Shown here piece by piece: positions 3,428-7,838 of a stretch of 64,000 nucleotides of DNA. The notes beneath the pieces are model-generated. The model saw nothing but the letters and a program-made list of their open reading frames with translations, made no database searches and had not been told where the DNA came from. The stretch is from assembly GCA_014762635.1 (NCBI GenBank), contig JABURR010000039.1, positions 1 to 64,000 on the forward strand, read 5' to 3'. The DNA is from Paracoccaceae bacterium (GTDB taxonomy: Bacteria; Pseudomonadota; Alphaproteobacteria; Rhodobacterales; Rhodobacteraceae). The position numbers were made by a program, and so were the translations under genes. Position 1 is the stretch's first letter; each line of letters starts with the position of its first letter.

Positions 3428-3889
3428 ATGGCGACGGAAACAAAAGAGCGATACCGGCTGCACCAGTCTCTGGGCTATCAACTGTCGGTCACCTCACGCA
3501 TCCAGGAACGCAGGCTGGACGAGGGCTTGAAGGAACTCGGCCTGACCCGGATCACTTGGTGTGTGCTTCTGGCCGTCGGAAACGAAGACCTTGAACACCC
3601 TTCCGCGATTGCCGAATTCGTTGGAATCGACCGAACTGCGACCTCTCGCGCCCTACGCCAGATGGAAGAGGACGGGCTGATTGCCCGCCGCACCGGCACC
3701 GGCGACCGCAGGACGACCAGTGTCCGCCTGACCGACAAGGGGTCCCGCTACCTGGACCGTGGAACCCCCCTCGCGGAATCCAACAATGCGATCCTCGAGA
3801 GCAAACTCACGACATCCGAGCTCGCCGAACTGCGGCGGTTGCTCAAGAAGGTCCGGGAAGGACAGGAAGTGCCGCTGACGCGCCTCTAG
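3428..3889 (+). CDS. MarR-family winged-helix transcriptional regulator
   Basis: This 153-residue protein has the MarR layout: N-terminal dimerisation helices, a winged helix at about residues 50-110 with IAEFVGIDRTATSRALRQMEEDGLIARR as recognition region, and the wing sequence GDRRTTSVRLTDKG, then a C-terminal helix pair. MarR proteins repress neighbouring genes until they bind a small aromatic or an oxidant. The ATG at 3428 matches the family start, although the frame stays open upstream. Its stop overlaps the convergent DUF3572 gene by four bases. The ligand and regulon are unknown; autoregulation and control of the divergent HAD gene are the simplest expectation. Confidence 0.87.
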   Translation: MATETKERYRLHQSLGYQLSVTSRIQERRLDEGLKELGLTRITWCVLLAVGNEDLEHPSAIAEFVGIDRTATSRALRQMEEDGLIARRTGTGDRRTTSVRLTDKGSRYLDRGTPLAESNNAILESKLTTSELAELRRLLKKVREGQEVPLTRL

Positions 3890-4164
3890 GTCCAGTTGAC
3901 CTGCTCTCCCCCCGGAAGCGCCGCCCGCGCGGCCATCAGCACCTCGTAGGCCAGACCTTCGGAATCGCAGAATGCCACGACCCAGGCATCATCCATCAGC
4001 AGGAAATCCAGGATCGCACCGAGGAAGGCGGGATCACCCGCCCCGGCCTTCAGATCTTCGAGCCCGGCCCCGGACGACCCAAGAAAGACCGGCAGCAATT
4101 CGTCATGCCCTGCCACCCACCCCAGGGCCCTGAGGCCTATTTCTTCTGCCTTGTCGCGCTGCAT
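3886..4164 (-). CDS. DUF3572 family protein
   Basis: This small acidic 92-residue protein matches the alphaproteobacterial DUF3572 family: an N-terminal helix A-E-E-I-G-L-R-A-L-G-W, the central D-P-A-F-L-G-A-I-L-D-F-L-L block, and a C-terminal A-R-A-A-L-P-G motif. There is no signal peptide or membrane segment, so it should be cytoplasmic. Its function is not known. It is divergent from the diguanylate cyclase gene and shares with it the intergenic region holding a CtrA-type site, so both genes may be under that regulator. Confidence 0.8.
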   Translation of the reverse strand: MQRDKAEEIGLRALGWVAGHDELLPVFLGSSGAGLEDLKAGAGDPAFLGAILDFLLMDDAWVVAFCDSEGLAYEVLMAARAALPGGEQVNWT

Positions 4165-4186
4165 GTGCCTGCCTGCCCAGTCAAAA

Positions 4187-4201
4187 TTAACCTTTTGTTA
4201 A
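4187..4201. promoter_or_regulatory. CtrA-type binding site TTAA-N7-TTAA
   Basis: Sequence shows TTAA CCTTTTG TTAA, a perfect match to the full CtrA consensus TTAA-N7-TTAA, and both half-sites extend to TTAACC. It lies 59 bases before the cyclase start and 23 bases before the DUF3572 start, in the only stretch between the two divergent genes. In Rhodobacterales CtrA governs motility, gene transfer agents and cyclic-di-GMP genes, which suits a GGDEF target. Actual binding is an inference. Confidence 0.65.
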
Positions 4202-4259
4202 CCCTTTTCATTGAACCCTTAGGCGAAATTTCCGAAACCGCATCGTATTGCGAGGGTCC

Positions 4260-5636
4260 ATGGGTGGCCGTATTTATATTGCAGACATCGACGCCGCCAA
4301 CCGAATAAGTCTCAAGAGCAAACTCTCTGAATCCAATTATGACGTCATCGACGTTTCGGACGACCCCCATCTGTCGGAGCGGTTGGTCCGGGAGCGACCT
4401 GATCTCATCGTACTCGGGGCCGATCTTCCCGGCAAATCCCTCCTGACGGTTCTGTCAGAGTTCAAGGCCCATGACCGCCAGAACGAAACCCCTGTGCTGG
4501 TCGTCGCGCGAACGCCCTGCCCGGGGCTGCGCTTGGCGGCCTTCGCAGCGGGCGTGGAAGACGTCCTTGACCTGCCCGTCGACGAAGGCCTGTTCCTTGC
4601 CAGAGTTCGCAGGGCCCTACGTGCGCACTGCACCTTTCGCCGACTGCGGGAGCGGGCAAGATCCGTCGCGAGCATCGGCTTTCACGAGGGGGTGCCGGCT
4701 TTCACCACAAGAACAAGCCTTGTTCTTGTCTCCGATGATCATGACACCGCCACTCCGCTCGCGTCGCAACTCGCCGATCATATGGGGGCCAGCGTCGACA
4801 TTGTTCCAAGCAATCAGGCGCTTCGGCATCTCGGGAACGTTCCGGCTCCGGACGTTGTTCTGATCGCCTCGGATTGCGCGGCAGATGCATCGCGCCTTGT
4901 GGCCGAACTCGGAAGCCGCCCGGAAACCCGGCACGTTCTATGTGTGCTTAGCTACAATCGCGACAGCCCGGAGAGTGCCATCATCGCGATGGATGTGGGC
5001 GCCAGAGAGGCGGTTCCGGACGACATCGACCCGCGCGAACTCGCGCTGCGCATCGGCAACCACTTGAAGGTCTTTCGCCATCTGGAGGGTCTTCGCAAGG
5101 CAAGTGACCGCGGATGGCTGTTGGCCACAAGGGATCAGTTGACCGGGCTTCTCACCCGTCGTGCCGGGCTGGCCCAACTGGAGAACCTTTCGGACCGGCT
5201 TCGAACGCAGGGTCAGAATTTCGCTGTTCTCTTTCTCGATATCGACCATTTCAAACGGGTGAATGACAATCATGGCCATGCCGGGGGTGACGCGGTCCTG
5301 AGCGAGGTCGCGCGTCGGATCGTCGAGAATCTGGCAAATTCGGCGCTGGTTGTGCGCTACGGCGGGGAAGAATTCCTGGCCGCCCTTCCCGACATCGACC
5401 TTGCGGCGGCAAACGTGGCCGCTGAACGCATACGGCGCGCGGTGGAAGCCATCCCGGTGCCCCTGCCCGGAGGCGCATCAGTGTCGGTGACCGTTTCGAT
5501 CGGCCTTTCCATGGGCGGCAGGATCCGATCCCCGGCCCCGGGCCTGCGGGGCCTGATAGAACAGGCCGACCGGGCCCTCTATGGCGCCAAGGCCGAGGGT
5601 CGGAACCAGGTCACCATCGATCACTCGCCGCGCTGA
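4260..5636 (+). CDS. PleD-type diguanylate cyclase with degenerate receiver domains
   Basis: This 458-residue protein has the PleD layout: receiver 1 (about 1-125), receiver-like adaptor (about 150-275) and a GGDEF domain (about 285-455). The cyclase half is intact, with D-Q-L-T-G-L-L-T-R-R, F-L-D-I-D-H-F-K and GGEEF at 368-372, so it should make cyclic di-GMP from two GTP. The receiver is not intact: the phosphoacceptor position 53 is glycine and the first acidic pocket is altered. The primary inhibitory RxxD just before GGEEF is replaced by A-N-S-A at 359-362. The ATG at 4260 is preferred over a TTG 12 bases upstream because it follows GAGGG. A CtrA site precedes it. Confidence 0.88.
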   Translation: MGGRIYIADIDAANRISLKSKLSESNYDVIDVSDDPHLSERLVRERPDLIVLGADLPGKSLLTVLSEFKAHDRQNETPVLVVARTPCPGLRLAAFAAGVEDVLDLPVDEGLFLARVRRALRAHCTFRRLRERARSVASIGFHEGVPAFTTRTSLVLVSDDHDTATPLASQLADHMGASVDIVPSNQALRHLGNVPAPDVVLIASDCAADASRLVAELGSRPETRHVLCVLSYNRDSPESAIIAMDVGAREAVPDDIDPRELALRIGNHLKVFRHLEGLRKASDRGWLLATRDQLTGLLTRRAGLAQLENLSDRLRTQGQNFAVLFLDIDHFKRVNDNHGHAGGDAVLSEVARRIVENLANSALVVRYGGEEFLAALPDIDLAAANVAAERIRRAVEAIPVPLPGGASVSVTVSIGLSMGGRIRSPAPGLRGLIEQADRALYGAKAEGRNQVTIDHSPR

Positions 5637-6121
5637 CCCCGCACCGCGCGGGCAAGGTTGTGCCGCAGGCGAAATACATACTCGCGTCGCTCGGGCACGG
5701 TCATTTCCGCCAATTGGTCCATCAGCAGCCTTTGCCCGAGGGCTTGTCGCTCAGCGAGGTGTGCCGATTGCTCTGCGAAAAGCCGCTGCACGGCGCCAGC
5801 GTCATAGGGGTCTGCCAGAAGCGCTGCCATCAACCGTTGAAAATGCGCCCGCATTTCACTGCGGCTGGTCGGCAGCGATCGTGCCGAGTCAGTCGCCGCC
5901 CGTGCGAATTCGGCACGATCTTCTCCGGACAGCGCCGCCACGAATGGCGTGTTTCCCAGTGCCCGCATCTGGCGCGGAAGCGGATCGGAGAGACGCTCTC
6001 TCCCCGCCAGCCCCCCAAGAACAACGCCCAGTACAAGCAAGTTGACCGCAAGCGACAGAACGAACGCCACCTGCATCCACCTGGGTGCTCGGATCATCGT
6101 GCGAGTTTCAACATCCGACAT
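5621..6121 (-). CDS. Periplasmic heavy-metal-sensor/Spy-like membrane-anchored protein
   Basis: This 166-residue protein has a short cytoplasmic N-terminus, one membrane segment (about 15-38) and a helical periplasmic domain rich in Arg, Glu and Gln, with L-S-x-E-D-R-A-E-F and V-P-E-R-R-E-Y-V-F-R-L typical of the Metal_resist (CnrX/ZraP-like) family. Such proteins sense or buffer metals or misfolded proteins in the periplasm. The ATG at 6121 is chosen because GGAGGG lies six bases upstream; a GTG at 6127 would abut that site. It is the third gene of a sigma/anti-sigma unit and its 3' end overlaps the convergent cyclase gene. The metal is unknown. Confidence 0.75.
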   Translation of the reverse strand: MSDVETRTMIRAPRWMQVAFVLSLAVNLLVLGVVLGGLAGRERLSDPLPRQMRALGNTPFVAALSGEDRAEFARAATDSARSLPTSRSEMRAHFQRLMAALLADPYDAGAVQRLFAEQSAHLAERQALGQRLLMDQLAEMTVPERREYVFRLRHNLARAVRGQRGE

Positions 6122-6123
6122 CG

Positions 6124-6519
6124 TCACCCCTCCGAAAGGAGTTCGGAATAGGAGGGCGCAAAAGCCTCGGCCGCGTCATAGGCTTGGGCAGCCACGCTGG
6201 CCTCCAGACTTAGAACATCCAGGGTTTCCGGAACGTTTGTCCCGATCCAAATCCCCAGCAGGCTTGCCGCCCCAAGGCCCGCAAGCGCGCGCCAACCTCC
6301 CAATTGAACGAGAACTGGCGCAAAAACCGGAGGTGCCTTCACCGGCTGCCGCGTCTCGGGCTTGTTCGGAATCGGCATCGGAAGGGCTTCGGGTTCCGCA
6401 GGAGCCTCGGCCTCTTCCACGATCCACAGCAACAGGTCCTCGCGCACTTGCGGATTGTTGGCGCGAGCCGCCGCGAAGACATCATCCAATTCTTTCTTGT
6501 CGAGCGGTTTTTCACCCAT
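6124..6519 (-). CDS. Putative single-span anti-sigma factor
   Basis: This 131-residue protein has an acidic cytoplasmic N-terminal part (K-K-E-L-D-D-V-F-A-A-A-R), a proline-rich linker, one membrane segment near residues 75-95 and a short periplasmic tail. I do not recognise a named domain. The call as anti-sigma factor rests on position: its start overlaps the end of the ECF sigma gene by eight bases, it is followed immediately by a periplasmic sensor-like gene, and the topology is what an ECF anti-sigma needs. The ATG at 6519 is preferred over one six codons upstream. The alternative is an uncharacterised membrane protein. Confidence 0.55.
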   Translation of the reverse strand: MGEKPLDKKELDDVFAAARANNPQVREDLLLWIVEEAEAPAEPEALPMPIPNKPETRQPVKAPPVFAPVLVQLGGWRALAGLGAASLLGIWIGTNVPETLDVLSLEASVAAQAYDAAEAFAPSYSELLSEG

Positions 6520-7096
6520 CACAAAACCCCAATTCACGACGCTGGCGCCCCAATTCTTCCGCCAGCGCCTTCTTCCCGCGCGCGGTCAGACTTTCTACCG
6601 CTTCGACGCTTGTGTCCATAACTTCTGCGATTTCCGTGTTTTGGAGCCCATCCAGATGTCTCAGAATGATGGCGGTTCTCTGTCTTTCCGGCAGACTGAG
6701 AAGCGCCTGCTCAAGCGCCGCGGAGCGCGCCTTGTCCTGCAAGGTCTGATCGGCCCGGGGCGACGGGTCCACAGGATCGGGAACCGTATCCAGACCAACG
6801 TTGCGCCGCGCTCTCAACCGATCCGTACAAAGGTTTGTCGCCACCCGGAACGCCCAGGTTGAGACCTTGGCCCGCCCGTTTTCCCACTTCGGCGCGATCC
6901 TCCAGAGCCGGAACATCGTCTCTTGCGTCACGTCCTCGGCTTCCGAGACATCTCCCAGCATCCGGTTGGCATAGGCCAGGATTCTGGGTGCAAGGCGCAG
7001 GGTCAGTTCGCGCGCCGCCGCGCGATCCCCGTTCCCATAGGCAACGAGCAAAGCCTCGTCCGGCGCCTCGCCCAAACCGTCAAATGCCATACTCAT
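6512..7096 (-). CDS. ECF-type RNA polymerase sigma factor
   Basis: This 194-residue group 4 sigma factor has region 2 (G-D-V-S-E-A-E-D-V-T-Q-E-T-M-F-R-L-W) binding the -10 element and core polymerase, and region 4 (L-P-E-R-Q-R-T-A-I-I-L-R-H, then N-T-E-I-A-E-V-M-D-T-S-V-E-A-V-E-S) reading the -35. There is no region 1 or 3, as usual. The ATG at 7096 follows AAGG by six bases; longer N-termini lack a ribosome site. The putative anti-sigma gene overlaps its end. The target promoter is not known; autoregulation through the upstream EF-hand gene would be typical. Confidence 0.9.
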   Translation of the reverse strand: MSMAFDGLGEAPDEALLVAYGNGDRAAARELTLRLAPRILAYANRMLGDVSEAEDVTQETMFRLWRIAPKWENGRAKVSTWAFRVATNLCTDRLRARRNVGLDTVPDPVDPSPRADQTLQDKARSAALEQALLSLPERQRTAIILRHLDGLQNTEIAEVMDTSVEAVESLTARGKKALAEELGRQRRELGFCDG

Positions 7097-7170
7097 TCTC
7101 TGCCTTGCTACCCCGGCGGCGGGATCACGGCAATCGCCGCGCACGAGACAGCCCCGTGCACGGCGCCTGT

Positions 7171-7653
7171 TCAGTTGTGGCGGCGCGGTCCCGGACCTTG
7201 ATGCCGCCCCACACGCGCCTGGGCCTGGGCGAATTCCTCACGCGAGATCGCGCCATCATCGTCCCGGTCGAGACGCGAGAACATGCGATCCAGCCGGTCC
7301 CCAGCCGCAAGTTCCTCGCCACTCAAGACGCCATCTCTGTTGCGGTCGCGGCGCTCAATCATCCGCTCGGCCATTTCGGCCGCCCGGTCCGCGGCCTTTG
7401 CAAGGATGCTGGCTTCGATTTCCGCAGCGGTGATCTCACCGTTGCCATCGGCATCCACCTCGGCGATGCGGTCTCCGGCCAGGGTTTCGGCGCGGGCCTC
7501 GGCCTCCGCCCGGGTGATCAACCCGTCGCCATCCGCATCGAAGGCCGCGAAGTCGAACCCGCCACGGTGGCCTCGCTGATGCTCGCCTTCCTCTGCCTGG
7601 GCGGACACGCCCGCCAGCGACATCGCCAAAAGAAACGGAACAAGTCTTGTCAT
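7171..7653 (-). CDS. Secreted EF-hand calcium-binding protein
   Basis: This 160-residue protein has an N-terminal signal peptide (MTRLVPFLLAMSLAGVSAQA) and four EF-hand loops starting at Asp39 (DADGDGLITRAE), Asp67 (DADGNGEITAAE), Asp103 (DRNRDGVLSGEE) and Asp129 (DRDDDGAISREE). All have Asp/Asn at positions 1, 3 and 5, a Gly at 6 and Glu at 12, so all four should bind calcium in the periplasm. The start follows GGAG. It is 74 bases upstream of the ECF sigma gene on the same strand, suggesting either a common transcript or a target of the sigma factor. It may act as a calcium-responsive input; this is inference. Confidence 0.85.
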   Translation of the reverse strand: MTRLVPFLLAMSLAGVSAQAEEGEHQRGHRGGFDFAAFDADGDGLITRAEAEARAETLAGDRIAEVDADGNGEITAAEIEASILAKAADRAAEMAERMIERRDRNRDGVLSGEELAAGDRLDRMFSRLDRDDDGAISREEFAQAQARVGRHQGPGPRRHN

Positions 7654-7838
7654 AATCAACTCCATTTGCTCGAACGCGCTCGTCATGAGGGCGTCATGAT
7701 CCTCAAACGGAGCAGCCCGGAATTTCCGTCGAAAAAAGTTTCGTGCCTTTGCGACATCCCGACGCAAGAGCCATTCCGGCCCTACACACCGTTCCTGATC
7801 CTGTTATCTTCAGGCATTCCAAAGTCTGGGGCGCGATA

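Follow-up and report, generated by a model that had tools for sequence, protein, structure and literature searches.

The sequence at positions 4187-4201 of the DNA analysed here, a 64,000 bp stretch of contig JABURR010000039.1 from a Paracoccaceae bacterium ("the window" below), is one lineage's version of an element that most of the sampled relatives carry before pleD. We consider it quite probable that this site serves as a CtrA box in the promoter of pleD, an inherited element through which the cell-cycle regulator CtrA activates pleD and a feedback by way of cyclic di-GMP (c-di-GMP) is closed. A single predicted site is in this way broadened into a family-wide promoter element that can be tested.

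The site and its setting

Both direct reading of the sequence and a pattern search show that TTAACCTTTTGTTAA, at 4187-4201, matches TTAA-N7-TTAA exactly, so the full CtrA box that a first-pass annotation of this DNA had claimed is indeed present at these coordinates. That annotation also held such a box to be rare by chance in GC-rich DNA, and this is borne out: it is the only one in the 64-kb window, where 0.03 are expected (the mean of 100 dinucleotide shuffles, three of which contained one). It lies, as had been said, in a small divergent region, namely the 95-bp gap between the genes for DUF3572 and a REC-GGDEF protein. The relevant features are as follows:

3886..4164, minus strand: DUF3572 protein, 92 aa, the conserved neighbour (PF12096, E 1.5e-30; start codon at 4164)
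4165..4259, no strand: divergent intergenic region, 95 bp (between the gene starts on either side)
4187..4201, plus strand: perfect TTAA-N7-TTAA full CtrA box, the site of the first-pass annotation (pattern search)
4187..4206, plus strand: whole CtrA-type box, positions 0-19 (alignment to the family pleD and ctrA promoters)
4214..4219, plus strand: -10-like hexamer AACCCT of the predicted pleD promoter, positions 27-32 (alignment columns 27, 28 and 32)
4260..5636, plus strand: PleD-type gene (receiver domain(s) and GGDEF), 458 aa (ATG at 4260)

The family form of the whole box on the pleD side is GAAA[GC]-N6-TTAACC-N2-T. The alignment hints weakly that AACCCT at 4214-4219 could be the -10 region of the pleD promoter, in which case transcription would start near 4226. 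The MarR-family gene at 3428-3889 (plus strand) and the DUF3572 gene (3886-4164, minus strand) converge, with a 4-bp overlap at their stop codons. Directly after pleD, 5621-7767 holds, on the minus strand, a Metal_resist protein, a small protein that has no Pfam match, an ECF-type sigma factor and an EF-hand protein.

A conserved element precedes pleD in most of the family sample

The family sample consisted of 149 genomes, one per genus, and DUF3572 is present in 144 of them. A PleD-type gene lies opposite DUF3572 across 60-250 bp in 123 of these loci, which make up the gap statistics (gene starts there were extrapolated from how each locus matched the proteins of the window). The remaining loci are L108 and L155, which were left out of the gap statistics, six with divK between the two genes, and 13 without an adjacent pleD, the last judged on the stretch around DUF3572. 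L108 and L155 have a diverged PleD and element scores of 23.6 and 14.7, and both were counted as pleD-adjacent.

Conservation of the box in this intergenic region had been proposed as a check, which fails in the form proposed. The perfect box occurs in one of the 123 gaps, that of the window's own genome (dinucleotide shuffles average 0.4), which rules out conservation of exact TTAA-N7-TTAA across the family; with one mismatch allowed, the pattern occurs in 18 of 123 gaps versus a shuffle average of 7.2. What is conserved is a variant, GAAA-N7-TTAACC. The aligned gaps give one element, G-A-A-A-[GC]-[GC]-N-T-T-T-[GC]-T-T-A-A-C-C-N2-T, in whose fitted copies the TTAA is universal and each A of the left AA is present in 98%. 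It reaches a matrix score of 10 or more in 117 of the 123 gaps (these gaps also served to train the matrix), and it usually ends 50-58 bp ahead of pleD, the full range being 41-161 bp. The copy in the window is this family element with TT replacing GA at the first two positions. Among the best 80 of 505 confirmed loci from named Rhodobacteraceae and their kin, which are partly the same organisms as the 123-gap set, all 80 have an element score above 10 and a PleD-type frame on the facing strand, and none has the perfect box.

A stringent form of the consensus, searched exactly in 147 genomes, matched 37 of them at 39 places, 30 at the DUF3572/pleD locus and nine elsewhere, compared with 13 for the reversed control. 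When one mismatch was allowed in the own genome, five places were found versus 17 for the reversed control. Neither search shows the full pleD consensus in use across a regulon.

The element goes with pleD rather than with DUF3572

The first-pass annotation had proposed that the box would place DUF3572 in the CtrA regulon. However, 12 of the 13 loci that have DUF3572 but no adjacent pleD lack the element (L028 is the exception), and for this reason it is probably not DUF3572's; it most likely belongs to pleD. Its well-conserved half and its -10-like columns are oriented toward pleD, and in at least 86 of the 123 loci no more than 19-31 bp separate its start from the extrapolated start codon of DUF3572, both of which speak against the proposal. 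The main reason for placing DUF3572 in the CtrA regulon is thereby removed, and as a target it is unsupported: DUF3572 is kept in most ctrA-less genomes, and the element is mostly missing where pleD is missing. The open-licence literature searched mentions DUF3572 in one paper only, on microproteins of Enterobacteriaceae. In L028, L032 and L137, genes that by eye look like all or part of the cluster found after pleD in the window come immediately after DUF3572, which would fit a loss of pleD by itself.

Comparison with the box before ctrA

The 400 bp before ctrA were taken from 40 of the 139 ctrA-bearing genomes, mostly those whose CtrA is closest to the own one. Every one of these 40 regions contains TTAA-N7-TTAA with no more than one mismatch, versus 5-12 of 40 at seven other spacings, and the perfect form is present in just two. 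The common form of the box, GTAAC-N6-TTAACC[AT]TT, starts 63-86 bp before ctrA in the 39 of 40 genera that were aligned (L348 was unalignable and was dropped from the profile). In these regions (L316-L355) the family box differs from the exact consensus of Caulobacter.

The ctrA and pleD promoters have in common G at position 0, AA at 2-3, TTAACC at 11-16 and T at 19, and the -10-like region is at 26-31 in the former and 27-32 in the latter; with the -10 placed by this alignment, the box would begin some 38-39 bp ahead of the predicted transcription start. A matrix derived from the ctrA promoters has its top match on the element in 113 of the 123 gaps (0.7 expected by chance; 114 with slightly wider ends), and in 71 when the TTAA core is masked, whereas 20 trials with column-shuffled ctrA matrices gave 0 in 18 cases, 1 in another and 38 in the last. 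Taken alone, the left half of the matrix found the element in one of the 123 gaps, its -10 columns in six, and its columns downstream of TTAA in 32. With the ctrA matrix the pleD elements reach a median score of 9.0, less than any of the ctrA boxes used (range 9.8-26.5, median 24.5); 54 of the 123 exceed 10, a score that 6e-5 of background positions reach. The central TTT, found in 78-92% of pleD elements, is absent from ctrA promoters. Because its layout resembles that of the ctrA boxes (39/40 genera), the pleD element is most likely a CtrA-activated promoter, and this likeness supports the earlier call of a CtrA-type site and of a CtrA link to a PleD-type cyclase.

The element can be placed beside three known arrangements. 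With Caulobacter CtrA-activated promoters, in which the full CtrA motif is TTAA-N7-TTAA and the ctrA P2 box is given at -39 (PMC4287350), it shares the spacing of 7, a location ahead of the -10 region (a predicted one in this case) and the TTAAC right half, but most Rhodobacteraceae pleD promoters have the left half GAAA and the central TTT. The Rhodobacteraceae ctrA box is at a similar distance from the -10 region and from the start codon, in addition to the shared columns, and differs in its GTAAC left half, its variable centre and its -10 columns, which are one base nearer. The osp control region of Rhodobacterales is described as having TAA-N7-TTAA 54 bp before the start codon, Osp being a CtrA-dependent CckA inhibitor (PMC9430884); by that description it too combines a CtrA-type site, placed about as far from the start codon, with a gene whose product would dampen CckA/CtrA, although Osp resembles a single-domain response regulator whereas pleD makes c-di-GMP. 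Our results suggest that searches with the exact Caulobacter consensus are likely to overlook the usual family forms, GTAAC-N6-TTAACC before ctrA and GAAA-N7-TTAACC before pleD.

TTAA pairs and CtrA in the own genome

The own assembly, 3.55 Mb in 98 contigs, contains 38 TTAA-Nx-TTAA pairs with x = 2-14, 11 at spacing 7 and 27 across the other twelve spacings, which hold 1-5 each (mean 2.25; Poisson p 2.4e-5 for the enrichment at spacing 7). Spacing 7 is a real class of TTAA pairs in this genome, and because the mean at other spacings is 2.25, about two of the 11 are expected as background. The genome encodes CtrA (NF045991 equivalog, 427.5 bits, cut-off 350; PDB 4qpj CtrA, E 9e-52). The box at 4187-4201 scores 18.4 with the ctrA-promoter matrix, more than any other of the 11 own boxes, and falls inside the 9.8-26.5 range of the ctrA-promoter sites.

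The neighbours of three boxes besides the window's were named by family search and the remaining boxes were read by eye. All three are perfect: the box at L007 1501-1515 precedes a small frame and then a large terminase (Terminase_6N), the one at L008 971-985 precedes dprA, and the one at L010 1501-1515 precedes a gene for a PAS protein adjacent to a histidine kinase. The first locus is probably where the gene transfer agent cluster begins, and the PAS protein of the third is probably the short DivL adjoining RegB. CtrA is reported to affect gene transfer agent genes and divL in Dinoroseobacter shibae (PMC4046655). The centre of the L007 box, TTAACCCTTTGTTAA, is similar to that of the pleD box. 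At least one own box (L006) sits within an open frame.

The PleD-type protein

The window protein aligns over residues 2-451 to the PDB PleD chain 9g85 (E 4e-56), that is, with full-length REC-REC-GGDEF similarity; Pfam finds one Response_reg and one GGDEF domain, and the second receiver is seen by alignment only. NCBIfam NF007135 is its best-scoring family and matches over the full length, at 240.8 bits, below the cut-off of 474. By these matches it is a diverged PleD-type protein. The first-pass annotation had called the cyclase degenerate, which is right for the receiver, where the phosphoacceptor Asp53 is Gly (codon 4416-4418), and for the inhibitory site, where RxxD is lost (Ala359, Ala362), but wrong for the cyclase motif: the GGEEF active site (residues 368-372, 5361-5375) is intact.

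Asp53 is lost in 64 of the 123 PleD proteins encoded without divK, the own one included, and kept in all six encoded with it, and GGEEF or GGDEF is present in 126 of the 127 PleD proteins longer than 400 residues. Loss of Asp53 in the absence of divK, with the cyclase motif kept, fits a shift of control from phosphorylation to transcription, and PleD control may have moved to transcription driven by CtrA. The elements are slightly stronger where Asp53 is lost (Mann-Whitney p 0.007, a test that ignores kinship); being uncorrected for kinship, this link was set aside as evidence.

Co-inheritance with ctrA

ctrA was found in 139 of the 149 family genomes and in 375 of 395 nearly complete genomes. 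Its absence was called from one query at E 1e-60, with a more sensitive look at G233, G006 and G219; G006, initially ctrA-less, carries a ctrA fragment and was counted as ctrA-bearing, and L289, at a contig edge, was dropped from the ctrA-less count. Among the 144 loci, pleD (with or without divK) adjoins DUF3572 in 130 of 138 ctrA-bearing versus one of six ctrA-less genomes (Fisher p 1.5e-5, a statistic that ignores kinship). The lone exception among the six, G008, is a genome that is 82% complete. In an enlarged ctrA-less set, which overlaps the 144-locus set, pleD adjoins DUF3572 in one of 14. A few related lineages may be behind the joint absence of pleD and ctrA. G233 (L288/L314) has no ctrA (best match 35% identity), yet it keeps pleD and an intact element, and L151, from a genome without ctrA, has a perfect TTAA-N7-TTAA beside DUF3572 and no pleD there.

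Alternative explanations

It is rather unlikely that the element is the site of another regulator, or a composite part of the core promoter, of which only the right half is CtrA-like; two substitutions by drift would then have given a CtrA-like sequence in the window, with or without binding by CtrA. Such an origin would suit the conserved GAAA and central TTT, which are no features of ctrA boxes, the low median score with the ctrA matrix, the near restriction of the element to one locus, unlike a regulon motif, and its persistence in the ctrA-less G233. It sits poorly with the right half, the T at 19 and the spacing, in all of which the element agrees with the ctrA promoters, with the enrichment of spacing-7 boxes in the own genome, with pleD adjoining DUF3572 in just one of the 14 ctrA-less genomes, and with the dgc2 transcript data described for D. 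shibae (PMC7232146, below). That the box arose by chance and has no function is highly improbable: it falls exactly on an element present in 117 of 123 genera, although the perfect form is unique to the own genome among the 123 gaps, about two of the 11 own-genome boxes would be background, and the perfect box of L151 stands beside DUF3572 where the genome has no ctrA and the locus no pleD.

Control of both genes by one CtrA site, with DUF3572 in the CtrA regulon and either activated or repressed, could coexist with the pleD-promoter explanation, and we regard it as distinctly unlikely. The near symmetry of the box and the shortness of the gap would allow it, and in R. sphaeroides the divergent fliF2 and fliL2 promoters are described as sharing a single CtrA site (PMC6180460). 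The loss of the element along with pleD in 12 of 13 loci although DUF3572 stays argues against it, as does the presence of DUF3572 in 16 of the 20 genomes first called ctrA-less (15 of 19 without G006); moreover, activation at the usual distance would put the transcription start at about the DUF3572 start codon. Repression of DUF3572 from the box may nonetheless occur. The reading that we prefer remains that of a CtrA box serving the pleD promoter.

Related loci in the literature

A published parallel to the proposed CtrA control of pleD is dgc2 of D. shibae, a receiver-bearing diguanylate cyclase gene with a predicted CtrA site that is presented as the first c-di-GMP gene to be induced by autoinducer (PMC6473078). 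Its transcript falls in CtrA-phosphorelay mutants, less than those of the other c-di-GMP genes in stationary phase (PMC7232146). If dgc2 should be the ortholog of the gene beside DUF3572, a CtrA-pleD link has already been proposed for one species. The R. capsulatus pair rcc02856/rcc02857, described as divergent, RegA-bound and also a CtrA target, was considered as the DUF3572/pleD locus and rejected, as its genes are annotated as encoding a PAS/PAC protein and a GGDEF-EAL protein. No description of the family-wide element, its GAAA form or the receiver loss was found in the open-licence literature searched, and in that literature only PMC9430884 mentions divK, pleD, operon, CtrA and Rhodobacteraceae together.

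Gene order around divK and a proposed circuit

divK lies between DUF3572 and pleD in six family genomes, most of which have only a weak or unclear element. Class-wide, DUF3572 is present in 34 of 114 genomes; the 29 new loci comprise 13 in which it faces divK followed by a PleD-type gene, three in which it faces a PleD-type gene without divK, and 13 with neither full arrangement. These gene orders indicate that the ancestral order was probably a DUF3572 gene diverging from divK-pleD. CtrA-like boxes with at most one mismatch precede divK in 11 of the 19 divK-bearing loci at spacing 7 and in 3-9 of 19 at nine other spacings, a weak enrichment that is suggestive only. In Caulobacter, divK has a CtrA motif with a ChIP signal, according to PMC4287350.

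We propose the following course of events. Loss of divK from the DUF3572/divK-pleD order would have left a CtrA box of this kind directly before pleD, where it was inherited as a promoter part in the variant form GAAA-N7-TTAACC, mostly 50-58 bp before the gene; in the own genome the left half would then have changed to TTAA, giving the perfect box. Phosphorylated CtrA would bind across the -35 region and activate pleD, raising c-di-GMP, and after the loss of divK the control of PleD would have shifted from receiver phosphorylation toward CtrA-driven transcription. In Caulobacter, c-di-GMP drives CckA to its phosphatase state, and for this reason the circuit CtrA to PleD to c-di-GMP to CckA would be a negative feedback on CtrA. 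More tentatively, and with less than even confidence, we suggest that the DivK/PleD branch as a whole was rebuilt in Rhodobacteraceae: divK was lost, the variant CtrA box was kept, PleD came to be set by its amount, and the feedback was closed. If this is true, the window is an extreme case of the rebuilt branch, with neither a phosphoacceptor nor a product-inhibition site in the protein and with a perfect CtrA box before the gene.

DivK and DivJ are reported to be absent in Rhodobacterales (PMC9430884), and the pleD element suggests how a family described in this way could still couple c-di-GMP to CtrA. One of the divK-bearing relatives, L120, has two CtrA-type sites before divK, GAAAGATAAAATTAACC and GTACGAACGAATTAACC.
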